From a virus, in the IMG/VR virus record IMGVR_UViG_3300036398_001591, positions 1 to 64,000 of that record: 64,000 nt of DNA; one strand, given 5' to 3'. Position numbers and translations under genes: made by a program. Each line of letters starts with the position of its first letter. Position 1 is the stretch's first letter. Shown one piece after another: positions 7,844 through 19,319 of this stretch. Under the pieces are notes generated by a model. The model worked only from the letters and a program-made list of their open reading frames with translations. It did not search any database and was not told where the DNA came from.

Positions 7844-8551
7844 ATGAAAAAGACGATACTCTCTAGTATCATGTCTTTGTTATTCGTTGCCAGCGCATTT
7901 GCGACAAATAGTGGTGGCAACTCAGTGTATATTGACCAAACTAACTCAGATAATACATCAATTAGTATAACACAAACTGGTTCTGGAAACCAAGTTGGTG
8001 ACAGAACCAATCTAATCACACCAGCATTTGTTATCGATGGTAACTCAATGCAATTAACAATTAACCAAGATGGTATGAACAACTCCATTATTGGTAATTT
8101 TATTGGTGGTGATTCTACAGCGGCCATCACACAGACGGGTTCCGGTAACATATTTAAATTGAATCAGGGTAACTTTGGTACCAACGGTGGTACCATGAAT
8201 GTGAACAAGACCGGTGACAACAACACCGTTGAATTCAATATGGGTACTTCACATATAACCAACAACTATCAATATACTTTAGCGATTGCTGGTAATTTGA
8301 ACAATGTGTTGTCTAATATGAACAGTAAATATATCGAAAACAATATTAGTGTTCTTGGTAACTCAAATAATGTAACAACGAATCAGATTGGTGCTCACGG
8401 GTCCCCGTCTTTTGCTGGACATAAAATTACAGCAAATATTATTGGTGATAGTAATGCCGTCTCCATTACACAAAATGGAACCACAACACCAAACATAATT
8501 ACGCTGAATGTTACAGGTTCTAGCACTACTACTACTATTGTTCAGCATTAA
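7844..8551 (+). CDS. Secreted curlin-repeat (CsgA/CsgB-like) amyloid subunit
   Basis: 235 residues with a signal peptide (cleavage about SAFA). The mature chain is Asn/Thr/Gly/Gln-rich and carries several imperfect curlin repeats of the type S-x5-Q-x-G-x-x-N, such as ISITQTGSGNQVGD, QLTINQDGMNNSIIGN, AAITQTGSGNIFKLNQG and AVSITQNGTTTPN. No cysteine in the mature part. This is the expected substrate of the upstream CsgG/CsgF pair. Ribosome site GAGGAA. The last 44 bases overlap the next gene in another frame. Larger than E. coli CsgA (151). Confidence 0.87.
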   Translation: MKKTILSSIMSLLFVASAFATNSGGNSVYIDQTNSDNTSISITQTGSGNQVGDRTNLITPAFVIDGNSMQLTINQDGMNNSIIGNFIGGDSTAAITQTGSGNIFKLNQGNFGTNGGTMNVNKTGDNNTVEFNMGTSHITNNYQYTLAIAGNLNNVLSNMNSKYIENNISVLGNSNNVTTNQIGAHGSPSFAGHKITANIIGDSNAVSITQNGTTTPNIITLNVTGSSTTTTIVQH

Positions 8552-9536
8552 TTGCTATGGTGGTATCGGTAAGGTAACTGAAGAAAAAGGTAATGCTGAG
8601 ATAGTTAGACAGAAATCAAAGTTAGGAGCCAAGATAAATTCTGGCATTGAATCGAATGATATTGTTCAAACTGTCAATGGTGTTGTTGGCATAACCTTTG
8701 AAGATGACACAAAGGTTCGGGTAACAGAACATTCAAAATTGGTTATTGACGATTTTGTTTATGACCCCAAATCTAAAGGTGCCGGAAAATTAGCAATGAA
8801 AGTTGCTCTCGGCACTGTTCGTTATGCCTCCGGTAGTATAGCAAAAGATAACGTTAAGAACGTAGCAATCAATACTCCGACCGCAACAATTGCGGTTCGT
8901 GGAACGGCATTCACTATGACGGTGGATGAAATTGGACAATCATTGATTGTATTATTACCAAACGTTGATGGTTCAGTTGGTGAAATTGAAGTTCGTACAT
9001 CAATGGGTTCAGTTGTATTAAATCAGGCATTTCAGGCCACGGTAACAACAGGTGCTGAAATCAAACCATTGAAACCGACACTACTCAATTTAAGTGAATC
9101 TGCAATCGATAATATGTTGATTGTTAAACCACCAAAAGAAATACTTAAACAGATGATTGAGGAAAACTCAAAAACATTTGATGCTCTTGCATTTAACGAA
9201 CTTGATAGAAATGCACTTGACATTAAAGTGTTTGTTGATGCATTAAAATATGATGAACTAAACATCAATGAACTAGATACAAATTATCTCACAAATGCAT
9301 TAGACACTCTTACAATGAATGCCTTTCAGGTGGGTTATAATGCATTAACACAATTATATGTCTTTGACCGAAATAGTTATTGGCAACTCAATCGTCATAT
9401 ACGTCAAGATTTTACCATGCTGATAAATAAAGATCAGGGCTATGATATCACTCTAATCCAAGACGGTACTACATTGTTTATTAAAAATATGGATAATACA
9501 ACAAACAAAACAATTATCAAACAAGGTTTAAAATGA
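8508..9536 (+). CDS. Secreted FecR-domain protein
   Basis: 342 residues. Signal peptide MLQVLALLLLLFSINCYGG; a FecR domain spans about residues 20-165, with GKVTEEKGNAEIVRQ, IVQTVNGVVGITFEDDTKV and the hallmark AINTPTATIAVRGTAFTM. The remaining 170 residues are Asn/Asp/Leu-rich (e.g. AFNELDRNALDIKVF) with no known fold recognised. The start lies inside the curlin gene and the stop overlaps the cyclase start (ATGA). In proteobacteria, periplasmic FecR-domain proteins are often encoded next to CHASE2 cyclases, as here. Confidence 0.85.
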   Translation: MLQVLALLLLLFSINCYGGIGKVTEEKGNAEIVRQKSKLGAKINSGIESNDIVQTVNGVVGITFEDDTKVRVTEHSKLVIDDFVYDPKSKGAGKLAMKVALGTVRYASGSIAKDNVKNVAINTPTATIAVRGTAFTMTVDEIGQSLIVLLPNVDGSVGEIEVRTSMGSVVLNQAFQATVTTGAEIKPLKPTLLNLSESAIDNMLIVKPPKEILKQMIEENSKTFDALAFNELDRNALDIKVFVDALKYDELNINELDTNYLTNALDTLTMNAFQVGYNALTQLYVFDRNSYWQLNRHIRQDFTMLINKDQGYDITLIQDGTTLFIKNMDNTTNKTIIKQGLK

Positions 9537-11593
9537 AAAAAATATTATTGTCACCGTGGACAGCCATCATTACCTTGTTGTTTTTTGTTTGTATTCGTTT
9601 TTATGATTCACCATTCATTGAGTCCGTTAGACTCAGATATTTTGACACTCTAATAACTTCAAAAGAAACCACTGTGTCCCAACAAGTCCACGTGGTAAAT
9701 ATAGATGACGAAACTATTCGACAAAAAGGACAATTTCCTTTCCCACGTGGAGAATATGCCTCCATTATTGATACTCTGTATAGGCATGGTGCTGGGTTGG
9801 TTGTTTTTAATATCTTCATGCCTGATGGTGATAGGTTTGGTCAAGATTCTAAACTTGCTTTCACACTAAAACAAAATCCTGTAGTATTTCCACATACAGC
9901 AACTAATGAGGATGTTCCAAAATCTATTGCTTTTCGTCCTGGTGTTTCAGTCATAGGTGAAGGTGATCCAGGAATTCATTATAAAAATGTACAACCGAAT
10001 GTGAGGTCCGTAAATGAAAATGCCTCTGGTATTGGTATTGTTAATACTATTCCCGAAATCGATGGTGTGGTCCGCAGAGTTCCAATGGTCGTTAGTGCAG
10101 ACGCAAAACTCTACCCAAGCATCTCCCTCGAAACCCTCAGAGTTGCATCAGGTGACCCCTCTTTCCAGGTTAAGGTTGTCGATGGAGCAATTGAAGCTGT
10201 CCGAATTCCACAGTTTGGAAAAATTCCAACAGATAACCTCGGTAGAATCTGGGTGGATTGGTCTTCAAGACCAACCGAACACTCCCTTGCTAAGTTGCCA
10301 GAGGACTTCAAAGGTGGAATCGTTATTGTCGGTCTTACCGCAAGGGGACTCAACAATCCCGTTGCAACTGGTAGAGGAGAAGTTTATCCGCACTACCTGC
10401 AAGCCTCTGTACTAGACACGGCTATTGCTGGTACAAACATCAATCGTCCAGATTGGGCTGATGGTGCTGAAATCTTAGCAATTGCTGGCGCTGGTATACT
10501 CTTACTCATACTCACACGATGGACTTATGTTGGTCTTGCATCAATACTTGTACTCACACTTGGTGCCATTTTTGGTTCGCAGTATGTGTATGCACAGAAT
10601 GCTTGGCTCTTTGACATTACAGCATTCGTAACTGCAATCATTCTTGTTGGTCTACATGCATATGGTGTTAAGTTTGTCTCCGAGTTTTTGCAGAAAATGC
10701 AAATCAAGAAACAATTTGGAACATATCTTTCACCAGCTTTGGTTGAAAAACTTCAAAAAAATCCAGAACTACTACAACTTGGTGGTGAATCACGTGAACT
10801 ATCGATCATGTTCACTGACGTTCGTGGCTTCACTTCAATCTCTGAACACTATGGTAAAGATGTACAAGGTTTGACCAAAATTATGAACCGATACATGACA
10901 GCAATGACAGCAAAGATACTTGAAAATAATGGAACTTTGGATAAGTACATCGGAGATGCACAGATGGCATTTTGGAATGCACCTTTGGATGAACCAAATC
11001 ATGCAAAGCTGGCGGTCAAAACTGGACTGGAAATGATGGGTAGTCTAGATGCGTTCAATAAAGAAGTTACGGCTGAAGGTGTTCCTCCATTTGGCATGGG
11101 TCTTGGTATCAATACTGATACTGTCGTGGTTGGAAATATGGGGAGCAATATGCGTTTTGATTATACTTGTCTCGGTGATGGCGTCAATCTTGCCGCAAGA
11201 CTAGAAGGTCAGAGTAAACCTTATGGTGTGAAGATTGTTATTGGTGCGAATACCAATAAACAGGTTGAAGATGAATATGCAACACTAGAACTTGATTGCA
11301 TTGCCGTCAAAGGAAAGAAAGAGGGTATACATGTCTACACCGTCCTAGGTAGACACGATTGGTGGATGGAGAATTCAGCGTATGTTGTCAATACTCAACA
11401 ACATGAGAAGATGTTGGAACTCTACAGGATGCAGAAGTTTGATGTAGCTATCAAATTCTGCCAAGACCTAAAAGGTTCATTCCTCGGTGAAATGGACCAC
11501 TACTACGAACTTTGGATTGAACGTTGTGAAGAAATGAAGGCAAAGGACTTGCCTAAAGATTGGGACGGAGTTTACCGTGCAACAAGCAAGTAA
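9533..11593 (+). CDS. CHASE2-domain adenylate/guanylate cyclase (class III)
   Basis: 686 residues. N-terminal membrane anchor (9-20), periplasmic CHASE2 sensor (about 25-300; VVNIDDETIRQKGQFPFPR, then VVFNIFMPDGDRFGQD), three membrane helices (about 305-385), then a class III cyclase domain (about 425-610): metal-binding Asp in SIMFTDVRGFTSISEHYG, DKYIGDAQMAFWNAP with the second Asp, and LGDGVNLAARLEG with the catalytic Asn and Arg. It appears intact and probably active. Last gene of the plus block. In bacteria such proteins turn periplasmic signals into cAMP or cGMP; in a phage it could change host second-messenger levels. Confidence 0.93.
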   Translation: MKKILLSPWTAIITLLFFVCIRFYDSPFIESVRLRYFDTLITSKETTVSQQVHVVNIDDETIRQKGQFPFPRGEYASIIDTLYRHGAGLVVFNIFMPDGDRFGQDSKLAFTLKQNPVVFPHTATNEDVPKSIAFRPGVSVIGEGDPGIHYKNVQPNVRSVNENASGIGIVNTIPEIDGVVRRVPMVVSADAKLYPSISLETLRVASGDPSFQVKVVDGAIEAVRIPQFGKIPTDNLGRIWVDWSSRPTEHSLAKLPEDFKGGIVIVGLTARGLNNPVATGRGEVYPHYLQASVLDTAIAGTNINRPDWADGAEILAIAGAGILLLILTRWTYVGLASILVLTLGAIFGSQYVYAQNAWLFDITAFVTAIILVGLHAYGVKFVSEFLQKMQIKKQFGTYLSPALVEKLQKNPELLQLGGESRELSIMFTDVRGFTSISEHYGKDVQGLTKIMNRYMTAMTAKILENNGTLDKYIGDAQMAFWNAPLDEPNHAKLAVKTGLEMMGSLDAFNKEVTAEGVPPFGMGLGINTDTVVVGNMGSNMRFDYTCLGDGVNLAARLEGQSKPYGVKIVIGANTNKQVEDEYATLELDCIAVKGKKEGIHVYTVLGRHDWWMENSAYVVNTQQHEKMLELYRMQKFDVAIKFCQDLKGSFLGEMDHYYELWIERCEEMKAKDLPKDWDGVYRATSK

Positions 11594-11879: not shown

Positions 11880-13319
11880 TTACAGCACTTTGTAACGGTC
11901 ATCCATGATGGTTTTAAGCATCACAGTTTCTGGTGTAAAAGTATCTAGGTCACCAGCAAGGAGTGGCTTAACCACGGCTGGAGAGAAACCAGACACCAGT
12001 GCTGTACCAGACTTGTCAAACTTCACTGGCGAGTTGCCATATGAAGCATTCAAGTTCCAGAACACAACCTTTGGCAAGGTGTATCCTGCGGCTTCGTACT
12101 TTCGTGCGATCATTTGGATAGCAGAATCATCGTGGTTCACACATTGATTGAACTGCATATCTGACAGAATCAATACCATTTCTGGCATTTCATTCTGTGG
12201 AACACCGGCACCTACTGCGGTAGCAAGGATTTTTGCAAATGCCTTGCTCAAGTCAGTGCTCATAGCCCAGTTAGACTTGACCATTCGATCAATCTTTTGG
12301 TTGATGTTACCTTTCAGGTGCAACAACTCTGGGTTAGTTGAGAAGGTCAAGAATGTATCCTTGAACTTACCAGTATTCTTGTCTGCAAGATACAATCCCA
12401 AAGAGACTGCAACTTCCATACATGACAACTTGCTGTTTGAACCGTGTCCACCAGCTGGGCATGACATAGAACCAGAAACGTCTACCAGAGGTAGGATGTT
12501 TCCATCGCCAACGTAGTTTGGTAGTGCTTCCCATTGCTTTTGGATCAAGTCCAATTCAGTCTTGTCAAACTTCACTCCGTAGAAGTTGATACGACCCTTC
12601 AACACATCATATGGATACACAGCGCCAGCGTTGACTTTTACTTCAACGGTGCGATCTTTTGGATCCTTCATCAACTCAGCAACATACTTACCATATTCTG
12701 GTGTGTTACGGTTGAAAGCCTTCTTGTAACGGGAAGCCGCTACGGAAGGAACATGTGAGAAGTTAATGGAATCCCAGTCCTTTGCACACATGTTTGTTTC
12801 AACAACTTTGGTCATTTCAACCAAAGACTTACGGTAGAACTTTGGTGACATTCCGAAGAATGTACGGATTTCTGCCGCAAGTGGACCTTGGCGAGGTGTC
12901 CACTTAGCCGCCAAACCATTCTTTTCACGGAGTGCGTTACCAAGAATAGTGTATGCGGCTTCTTTCAGTGCTTTGGTCTTGAAGACAAACAAATCATCCC
13001 AACGACCCAATTCTGGCACTTTAGCCAACAGAGCCTTAGCGGCTTCTGTATCAGTGTTTTCCAGATACACTAGGATATCACGGAACAACTGGCGTTCACC
13101 AGCACCGCCACGTGCGTCACGTAGCCATGCGGCAACTCGTAGAGCCAATTCACGGTTCTCTGCCAAGGCGGCCGCAAATGCAGGCTTAATATCTTTTCCA
13201 CGGGATGCACCCGCATTGTAAAACAAATCAACCACCGCATTGGCGGTTGACTTGCGAGCCTTCATACCGTTTGTGGTACGGGCTTCTTGGTTCTTAACAG
13301 CTTCGACAAATGTTGACAT
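11880..13319 (-). CDS. Ro60-like RNA-binding protein (TROVE/DUF2828-type helical ring plus vWA)
   Basis: 479 residues. The N-terminal two thirds are helical repeats with VAAWLRDARGGAGERQLFR, LGRWDDLFVF and AAKWTPRQG, the signature layout of DUF2828 proteins, which share domain organisation with Ro60/TROVE. The C-terminal third is a von Willebrand A domain with an intact MIDAS motif (LVDVSGSMS). Ro60 binds Y RNAs and misfolded RNAs. The ATG at 13319 is chosen for its AAGGAG site; the longer frame runs through element E1. Three structured tRNA-like elements lie directly upstream and are probably co-transcribed. Assignment to the Ro superfamily is good; the RNA ligand is inference. Confidence 0.82.
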   Translation of the reverse strand: MSTFVEAVKNQEARTTNGMKARKSTANAVVDLFYNAGASRGKDIKPAFAAALAENRELALRVAAWLRDARGGAGERQLFRDILVYLENTDTEAAKALLAKVPELGRWDDLFVFKTKALKEAAYTILGNALREKNGLAAKWTPRQGPLAAEIRTFFGMSPKFYRKSLVEMTKVVETNMCAKDWDSINFSHVPSVAASRYKKAFNRNTPEYGKYVAELMKDPKDRTVEVKVNAGAVYPYDVLKGRINFYGVKFDKTELDLIQKQWEALPNYVGDGNILPLVDVSGSMSCPAGGHGSNSKLSCMEVAVSLGLYLADKNTGKFKDTFLTFSTNPELLHLKGNINQKIDRMVKSNWAMSTDLSKAFAKILATAVGAGVPQNEMPEMVLILSDMQFNQCVNHDDSAIQMIARKYEAAGYTLPKVVFWNLNASYGNSPVKFDKSGTALVSGFSPAVVKPLLAGDLDTFTPETVMLKTIMDDRYKVL

Positions 13320-13338: not shown

Positions 13339-13462
13339 AACAGGTTAAACTTTTTGCGGACCATTGTGCTACCATTACACTAGACCCCTAAGGGAGCCGG
13401 AATCGAACCGGTCTTTCGGTTTTTCGTTGCATAAATTGTTTTGCGGAACTTAACCTAAAAAC
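13339..13462 (-). ncRNA. Structured element E1, permuted tRNA-like
   Basis: Ends pair as AGGTTAA/TTAACCT (13342-13348, 13450-13456). On the minus strand the order is: T-arm CCGG-TTCGATT-CCGG (13397-13411), a short closed acceptor-like hairpin (TCCC-TTA-GGGG), then a D-arm-like GTGTAATGGTAGCAC (13366-13380). The 3' half of a tRNA thus precedes its 5' half, and the RNA ends sit where the anticodon arm would be. It ends 20 bases before the Ro60-like start codon, so it is probably in its leader. The topology resembles that described for bacterial YrlA Y RNAs; homology is not shown. Confidence 0.65.
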
Positions 13463-13576
13463 AACAGAGTAGTTTGATTGCCACCGTGGCACATCATCCG
13501 AGTCTCTTTCGAGTTTTGGTGGATAATGCTGGAATCGAACCAGCTAGTTTTTGTTTTGCTGAACCTACTCTAAAAC
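13463..13576 (-). ncRNA. Structured element E2, permuted tRNA-like with acceptor stem and CCA
   Basis: Ends pair as AGAGTAG/CTACTCT (13466-13472, 13565-13571). Minus-strand order: T-arm GCTGG-TTCGATT-CCAGC (13528-13544), ATTATCC (13521-13527), A-CCA (13517-13520), a GAAA-loop hairpin (13500-13516), then GGATGAT (13493-13499), which pairs with ATTATCC to rebuild a 7-bp acceptor stem, then a D-arm-like TGCCACGGTGGCA. This is a circularly permuted tRNA layout opened at the anticodon stem. No anticodon can be read. Confidence 0.68.
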
Positions 13577-13586
13577 TTTCAAAAAT

Positions 13587-13758
13587 AACAGGATAGTTTT
13601 CTACTTTTTGATTACAGAGAGAAAATCGAAACTCTCCTTGCTTAGTATGTTTCAGTGTCAAACCTTCAACGCACTCGGTCAAGACTCCGTGCTCCAGTTT
13701 TCTACCACAGTGACTAAACGATCCAGTATTAGTGGGATGCTGTACCTATCCTAAAAAC
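13587..13758 (-). ncRNA. Structured element E3, promoter-proximal, with degenerate tRNA-like parts
   Basis: Ends pair as AGGATAG/CTATCCT (13590-13596, 13746-13752). Inside, on the minus strand, are hairpins ACTAA...TTAGT, GCACGG...GTGC, GTTT...AAAC and a T-loop-like GAGAG-TTTCGATTTT-CTCTC. Same flanks as the other copies (GTTTTTAG, then GTACAGC). It is the first element after the sigma70 promoter at 13780-13808. The longest copy; no clean tRNA can be drawn. Confidence 0.55.
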
Positions 13759-13779: not shown

Positions 13780-13808
13780 ATTATATCACGTTAAGTGTAA
13801 CTTGGCAA
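13780..13808 (-). promoter_or_regulatory. Sigma70-type promoter for elements E3-E2-E1 and the Ro60-like gene
   Basis: Minus strand TTGCCA - 17 bases - TATAAT. The predicted start is about 13773, roughly 15 bases before E3. A partial element-like sequence (GTTTTTAGGCAA...TTGCC) overlaps its -35 box. Confidence 0.8.
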
Positions 13809-18503: not shown

Positions 18504-18571
18504 AACAGAGTAGTTTTTTGCGGTTTCAATTACAAGTTGAATGCTTTTATTTGCTGAACCTACTCTAAAAC
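18504..18571 (-). ncRNA. Structured element E4 (short form)
   Basis: Ends pair as AGAGTAG/CTACTCT (18507-18513, 18560-18566) with the same flanks as E1-E3 (GTTTT at the 5' side, GTTCAGCAAA after the stem). The inside is a single hairpin, TTCAA-CTTGTAA-TTGAA, with no T-arm. It fills a tRNA-sized slot between tRNA-Asn and tRNA-Ala. Confidence 0.6.
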
Positions 18572-18655: not shown

Positions 18656-18726
18656 AACAGGATGATTTTTGTCGCTAGACAACCAAAAAGTTTAGCTAAT
18701 TTTATTTGCTGTACTCATCCTAAAAA
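18656..18726 (-). ncRNA. Structured element E5 (short form)
   Basis: Ends pair as AGGATGA/TCATCCT (18659-18665, 18715-18721), again with GTTTTTAG and GTACAGCAAA flanks. The inside has an imperfect GCTA-AAC/GTT-TAGC hairpin. The arm sequence differs from the other copies but pairing is kept, which is covariation. Confidence 0.6.
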
Positions 18727-19150: not shown

Positions 19151-19238
19151 TGGTGGAGCCTGAAGGAATCGAACCATCCGCCAACCACCCTTCAATTAAA
19201 GGCAACGGATTTACAGTCCGCTGAAGGGAACAGGCTCC
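19151..19238 (-). tRNA. tRNA-Tyr(GTA)
   Basis: 88 nt class II tRNA. Anticodon loop CTGTAAA, acceptor GGAGCCT/AGGCTCC, long variable arm, CCA encoded. Confidence 0.92.
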
Positions 19239-19244
19239 TAAAAC

Positions 19245-19319
19245 TGGTACCGATGGACAATTTCGAAATGTCGGCCTTTCGCTTATCAAGCGAATGCTCT
19301 TCCTCTGAGCTACATCGGT
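19245..19319 (-). tRNA. tRNA-Ile(GAT)
   Basis: Anticodon stem-loop TTCGC-TTGATAA-GCGAA, acceptor ACCGATG/CATCGGT, T-loop TTCGAAA, CCA encoded. Confidence 0.92.

Follow-up and report, generated by a model that had tools for sequence, protein, structure and literature searches.

In the bacterial Y RNA YrlA, Rsr is described as binding to the basal stem, while PNPase is bound and tethered by a tRNA-like domain (PMC8394870). The structure of the Salmonella Typhimurium molecule is PDB 6CU1, as cited in the same paper, and the YrlA features used here for comparison were taken from PMC8394870 and PMC7790460. In CKA15, a P100-like Listeria phage, three very abundant transcripts lie within 2 kb upstream of an Rsr-like gene, and the authors propose that they are Y RNAs (PMC12282133). 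In mycobacteriophage annotation, gp53 of LeBron, a homologue of the protein P0001 studied here, is a "Ro-like RNA binding protein". The system described below offers a comparison that bears on the reason for the tRNA likeness of bacterial Y RNAs. The 3' half of a tRNA also lies ahead of the 5' half in the permuted tRNA genes of algae and archaea, which carry an anticodon and mature into working tRNAs.

The window analysed here is the whole 64-kb stretch shown above, which is part of an IMG/VR contig of 82.6 kb with T4-type replication and head genes. ARAGORN finds 27 tRNAs and misses one ordinary tRNA-Tyr (around 19165-19245, minus strand, anticodon loop CUGUAAA), perhaps because of a weak T-stem. 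On the opposite strand, positions 7844-11593 (plus) are occupied by host-type genes, unusual for a T4-type phage; their products are a repeat protein that matches nothing in Pfam, a protein with a FecR domain, and one with CHASE2 and adenylate/guanylate cyclase domains. Three RNA elements (E1, E2 and E3) form a tandem array on the minus strand. The array immediately precedes the gene for P0001, a protein of 479 amino acids, which starts 22 nt downstream of E3. The array, the gene and two further elements (E4 and E5) are as follows.
13780-13808, minus strand: sigma-70-like promoter, TTGCCA, 17 nt, TATAAT, with TG before the -10 (11/12 matches, consensus only)
13589-13753, minus strand: E1, Y-RNA-like, stem UAGGAUAG/CUAUCCUG with GUACAGCA; same class in many relatives
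13465-13572, minus strand: E2, whole element, permuted tRNA-like Y RNA (fold, relatives, covariance model)
13342-13456, minus strand: E3, Y RNA with a permuted tRNA-like core; the D-arm is canonical, and the acceptor of this phage's copy is short
11883-13319, minus strand: P0001 gene, DUF2828 and DUF7788, phrog_850 "RNA-binding protein", MIDAS sequence DVSGSM (Pfam, PHROG, predicted fold)
18658-18722, minus strand: E4, minimal element UAGGAUGA-GUACAGCA...UCAUCCUG, between tRNA-Pro and tRNA-Asn
18506-18567, minus strand: E5, minimal element with a non-tRNA core, between tRNA-Asn and tRNA-Ala

In each element of the array the ends are paired, the 5' strand is followed by the motif NNC(A/C)GCA, and the flanks are rich in U. 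The terminal stem and NNCAGCA motif of the E2 type (the handle) also close the non-tRNA cores of E1, E4 and E5, the 8-bp stem and the motif of E5 being identical to those of E2. The core of E1 is not a strict permuted tRNA, yet it bears a T-loop-like hairpin. In dozens of relatives, the E1-type core is kept as a GAGUUUCGAUUUCUC hairpin with a T-loop-like sequence, followed by AUCAAAAAGUAG and then by the terminal stem. Because the handle is common to all core types, we infer that the Ro-like protein binds through the basal stem, and the motif (GUUCAGCA in E2) is proposed as its binding site. E1 to E3 are co-directional and lie directly upstream of the gene, with one promoter-like site ahead of them (one found, 1.2 expected in shuffles), an arrangement that would also suit a cis-acting, tRNA-shaped leader of the Ro-like mRNA instead of a free RNA. 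Such a leader is highly improbable, since E4 and E5, which are 62-65-nt RNAs with the same handle, are located in spacers of the tRNA cluster 5 kb from the array, and since in LeBron and in phage 6ec handle elements are found downstream of the Ro-like gene (three in LeBron, the middle one being a permuted tRNA mimic).

Read from 5' to 3', E2 contains a T-arm, the 3' acceptor strand, a capped loop, the 5' acceptor strand and a D-arm, and its two ends are paired. In the same direction, its parts are the following.
13565-13572, minus strand: 5' strand of the terminal stem, UAGAGUAG, pairing with 13465-13472 (100% paired in 19 relatives)
13557-13564, minus strand: handle motif GUUCAGCA, common to all core types, putative binding site of a Ro-like protein
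13528-13544, minus strand: T-arm, GCUGG-UUCGAUU-CCAGC (fold and 19 relatives)
13521-13527, minus strand: 3' acceptor strand, AUUAUCC (three acceptor pairs change on both sides)
13517-13520, minus strand: ACCA after the 3' acceptor strand (in many, not all relatives)
13504-13513, minus strand: cap hairpin, CUC-GAAA-GAG, GNRA (one compensatory pair; missing in about one third of relatives)
13493-13499, minus strand: 5' acceptor strand, GGAUGAU (alignment of the 19 relatives)
13479-13491, minus strand: D-arm-like hairpin, UGCC-ACGGU-GGCA, with GG in the loop (relatives)
13465-13472, minus strand: 3' strand of the terminal stem, CUACUCUG (pairing in 19 relatives)

An earlier note on this DNA had read E2 as a tRNA permuted at the anticodon arm, and every element that it named on the minus strand was recovered; they also appear in the minimum-energy fold, which includes the terminal stem, the T-arm, the 7-bp acceptor with its GNRA cap hairpin, and the D-arm-like hairpin. 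The bounds given there need correction, the RNA extending over 13465-13572 and not 13463-13576. The stability of the fold has a z-score of -2.94, with 2 of 200 shuffles equally stable. The D loop is short (5 nt) and keeps its GG in every relative. E2 has no anticodon arm: the terminal stem and handle occupy that place, and the pairing of the RNA ends where the anticodon stem would be, as had been suggested, is seen in all 19 relatives. A protein-coding reading of the 62-aa ORF at 13494-13682 was rejected because the relatives of E2 (90, 92, 94, 96 and 102-108 nt) differ in length by numbers that are not multiples of three. The search of the array against Rfam gave chance-level matches only, with nothing over the cut-off.

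A strict signature, which demands a perfect T-arm, a 7/7 acceptor and GG in the D-arm, has a single match in the window, at E2. It is also present in 10 of 300 dinucleotide-shuffled windows, which makes E2 only mildly unlikely from the sequence alone and would be compatible with two unrelated tRNA remnants pairing by chance. The likelihood of this is practically negligible, considering that compensatory changes are found in the acceptor, the T-arm, the terminal stem and the cap hairpin, and that, of 1481 distinct tRNA genes, the one with the most similar 3' half still has mismatches at 4 of 24 positions. A recent copy of a tRNA gene was rejected on the same distance.

It is the comparison with relatives that settles that E2 is real. 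The 19 relatives of E2 were picked by their terminal sequences, without use of the acceptor. Among them, 99.2% of the proposed pair cells hold and 39 cells are changed on both sides, compared with 12.2 in shuffles (none of 500 reaches 39) and with 0 or 1 when the partners are slid; the covariation is 0.224, against 0.085 for shuffled and at most 0.057 for slid partners. Two pairs of the terminal stem show compensatory change, and RNAalifold, unprompted, returns the same helices except for the cap hairpin. The acceptor strands covary, and E2 is conserved in its relatives. In a larger set of 46 distinct permuted RNAs, compensatory changes are seen in 7/7 acceptor, 3/5 T, 4/4 D and 6/7 terminal pairs. 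Since this set was filtered for pairing, which biases pair percentages upwards, only the diversity of its pairs was used; the unfiltered strict-rule list includes some false matches in tRNA clusters, and the counts are those of the filtered set. All T loops in the 46 RNAs begin with UUCGA and all D loops keep GG. ARAGORN calls all 46 as tRNAs after rotation at the acceptor cap and insertion of one dummy anticodon arm, compared with 0/46 in genomic order, in agreement with a permuted topology; the program is tolerant, as 26 of the 46 rotated RNAs are still called with their acceptor strands swapped. In addition, a covariance model (R1) was trained on 17 permuted RNAs of other phages, E2 being excluded. 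Its top match in the window is E2 (30.1 bits, E 2e-7), and E3 comes fourth (24.6 bits, E 9.5e-6), the matches ranked between them being reads across neighbouring ordinary tRNAs. As R1 scores ordinary tRNAs across a gap, its matches in tRNA clusters were not counted.

The earlier note had allowed for either a two-piece tRNA or a tRNA mimic. If E2 were a genuine permuted tRNA gene, its acceptor loop would be opened by RNase P and by processing at the 3' side, which would leave a CCA-ended tRNA or tRNA-like RNA, either two-piece or circularised. This would fit the ACCA found right after the 3' acceptor strand in E2, in many of its relatives and in RNAs linked to a TROVE gene (locus L181, see below), as well as the 7-bp acceptor with its RNase P-like geometry and the existence, in other phages, of RNAs that bear the handle and yet have a CCA and an acceptor end left free. 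However, the ACCA is replaced by ACCC, GCCA, ACCU, ACUA or UUCU in other E2 relatives, other permuted RNAs often have their acceptor closed with UUCG or with a loop of only 2 nt, and some sister RNAs of the E3 type have no acceptor (L063, L124, L154, L156 and L158). Together with the missing anticodon and with a terminal stem that is common to non-tRNA elements and identical on E5, these variations make a permuted tRNA gene quite improbable; of the two readings, the mimic is strongly favoured and the two-piece tRNA was not retained. The acceptor end seems to be built to stay shut, the elbow being the part that is kept; E2 itself may nonetheless be processed.

The predicted structure of P0001 (mean pLDDT 72) was compared with known folds. 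With Foldseek, the only matches below 1e-3 are the TROVE protein 9kop, Rsr from D. radiodurans and human Ro60. The model aligns with 9kop at Z 16.8 (rmsd 5.3, 373 aligned residues), followed by the Ro autoantigen 1yvr (15.4), the Ro60 of Thermus phage phiLo (15.0) and Rsr (12.6), and Ro60/TROVE entries outrank the rows with a vWA domain only. The predicted fold of P0001 thus matches TROVE/Ro60 over its length, with a HEAT-like ring and a vWA/MIDAS domain. The kinship with Ro60 rests on this predicted fold, because the TROVE profile PF05731 matches neither P0001 (Pfam) nor proteins in five phage records with homologues, and PDB sequence searches with P0001 or its alignment retrieve no Ro60. Homologues of P0001 are present in 667 phage records; gp165 of P100 is a homologue, and the Ro-like system is mostly annotated in phages as "hypothetical protein" or DUF2828.

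A scan for P0001 relatives gave 80 viral loci, and in almost every one of them the gene is preceded by one to four such RNAs. None of the 79 upstream regions examined lacks a candidate handle element, and for 20 loci 49 handle elements were counted against 6 in shuffles. The handle adjoins homologues in phages of Synechococcus, Listeria, Aeromonas, Campylobacter, Stenotrophomonas, Mycobacterium and Staphylococcus; for several T4-like and Felix O1-like homologues no handle was found within 330 bases upstream of the gene. The P100 locus bears handle elements at the place matching the abundant CKA15 transcripts. In further loci (L160, L161, L163, L164, L169 and L171-L176), DUF2828 homologues with handle elements occur in Roseiflexaceae, Endomicrobium and Bacilli contigs, and matches of the permuted-tRNA model adjoin distant homologues in Akkermansia. 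A larger class of handle RNAs, which measure roughly 210-250 nt and contain AGGACCACCGCAAGGUG and GACUCUGGAAAGACAG segments, lies upstream of the Ro-like gene in L005, L010, L012, L073 and others, and a further class carries GUAGAAUAUAGGAUAGUGCC (L023 and L027); these larger classes have no Rfam match in the loci tested.

The handle was also found inside out, with the 3' strand first and then a short loop, the 5' strand and the motif, in tRNAs whose acceptor ends are normal; these come from Citrobacter phage Ci1, Synechococcus phage BUCT-ZZ01, Aeromonas phage LAh_6 and Endomicrobium. In 22 distinct viral tRNA-Tyr-like genes with the handle, the CCA is encoded and both the acceptor and the handle stems covary; the invariance of their anticodon arm results from the selection, since they were fetched by this arm. 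The handle sits between the D-arm and the T-arm in L094-L133, L083:4391-4625, L082:4211-4324, L092:3-119 and L164 upstream of 716. Some of these tRNAs keep their anticodon arm (tRNA-Tyr GUA), and in Endomicrobium the handle replaces it. One of the two handle-bearing tRNAs of Ci1 is annotated as a pseudo tRNA. The window has no handle-bearing tRNA-Tyr, the tRNA-Tyr near 19173 being an ordinary one. We read these cases as one portable handle that takes up the anticodon side of a tRNA in either of two topologies. The broader idea, that a Ro-like ring uses a portable handle on many cores (permuted mimics, minimal hairpins, larger RNAs), even in real tRNAs such as tRNA-Tyr, as a changeable RNA cargo, is put forward tentatively, its chances being slightly short of even.

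Very probably, E2 is a YrlA-type Y RNA encoded by a phage, a tRNA mimic in which a handle and a tRNA-shaped module serve a Ro60-fold protein. The paired ends and the GUUCAGCA internal loop form the handle, which would be bound by P0001, encoded just downstream. The remainder would be a tRNA-shaped effector module, in which the T-arm stacks on the 7-bp acceptor, the D-loop can contact the T-loop, a loop closes the acceptor end, and the handle takes the place of the anticodon arm. The array most likely yields several handle RNAs with different cores, which could let the phage change the cargo. By analogy with YrlA and PNPase, the Ro-like ring may use the tRNA-shaped RNA to tether a partner recognising tRNA elbows or acceptors; alternatively, the tRNA-shaped core could gate the channel of the ring. 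Either would take place in phage or host RNA turnover. The scan of window proteins showed neither a PNPase nor an RNA ligase, so that the partner would have to come from the host or be encoded elsewhere. A tRNA shape without anticodon, together with fast-changing acceptor sequences and swapped cores, could also be expected from a decoy working independently of an RNA-decay machine, which would capture or inhibit tRNA-directed enzymes of the host (nucleases and enzymes of modification or defence), and YrlA has been proposed as a competitive inhibitor of an anticodon nuclease (PMC7790460). This is unlikely: E2 lacks the anticodon arm, which is the part cut by anticodon nucleases, YrlA itself is not cleaved (PMC7790460), and a decoy role would not account for the handle being shared by cores that are not tRNA-like. 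A natural comparison is provided by the fact that, with the handle and the protein family constant, close relatives exchange cores that are tRNA-like, acceptor-less or not tRNA-like at all; as cores are swapped on one handle, and as the handle occurs in full tRNAs of either topology, the role of the tRNA shape is directly testable by core swapping.

In three gammaproteobacterial loci (L178, L179 and L181), permuted RNAs adjoin genes with a genuine TROVE match. Their order is T-arm, 3' acceptor strand, cap (AUUCAAU, GAAA or ACCAAU), 5' acceptor strand, UA and D-arm, and they score up to 54 bits with the phage-trained covariance model. RNAs of the same topology as E2 are thus found beside genuine TROVE genes, and E2 itself beside a gene with a predicted Ro60 fold, which bears out the likeness to YrlA noticed from the sequence. 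Compared by eye, the motif region reads AACAGUUACUUC in the TROVE-linked L178, AACAGCAAUUACUUC in LeBron and UUCAGCAAAACAAAAACUA in E2; presumably, the handle motif differs from the Ro60-binding motif of bacterial YrlA. E2 shares the halves order of the algal and archaeal permuted tRNA genes, but it lacks an anticodon and its CCA is not conserved. Like E2, permuted tmRNA (RF04321) consists of a 3' tRNA part, a loop and a 5' tRNA part; E2, however, is far shorter and has no tag reading frame, and the array matches RF04321 at chance level (10.1 bits, cut-off 47). With YrlA, E2 has in common a basal stem made from both ends, D-, T- and acceptor arms, and an adjacent Ro60-fold gene (predicted for E2). 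By its structure E2 is a YrlA-type Y RNA, and it works like one if, as we infer, the protein binds it. The E2 system differs from YrlA in its NNCAGCA handle, in a DUF2828/DUF7788 protein missed by the TROVE profile, in the presence of several RNAs per phage with exchanged cores, and in the very short D loop of E2. The phage Ro-like systems of mycobacteriophages and of Listeria phage CKA15 (PMC12282133) have a homologous protein and adjacent handle elements of the same kind; the Listeria elements seen are not tRNA-like, whereas E2-type cores are known here from uncultured phages and LeBron. Phage Y RNAs were already known, while the swappable cores and the fusions of the handle into tRNAs appear to be new.
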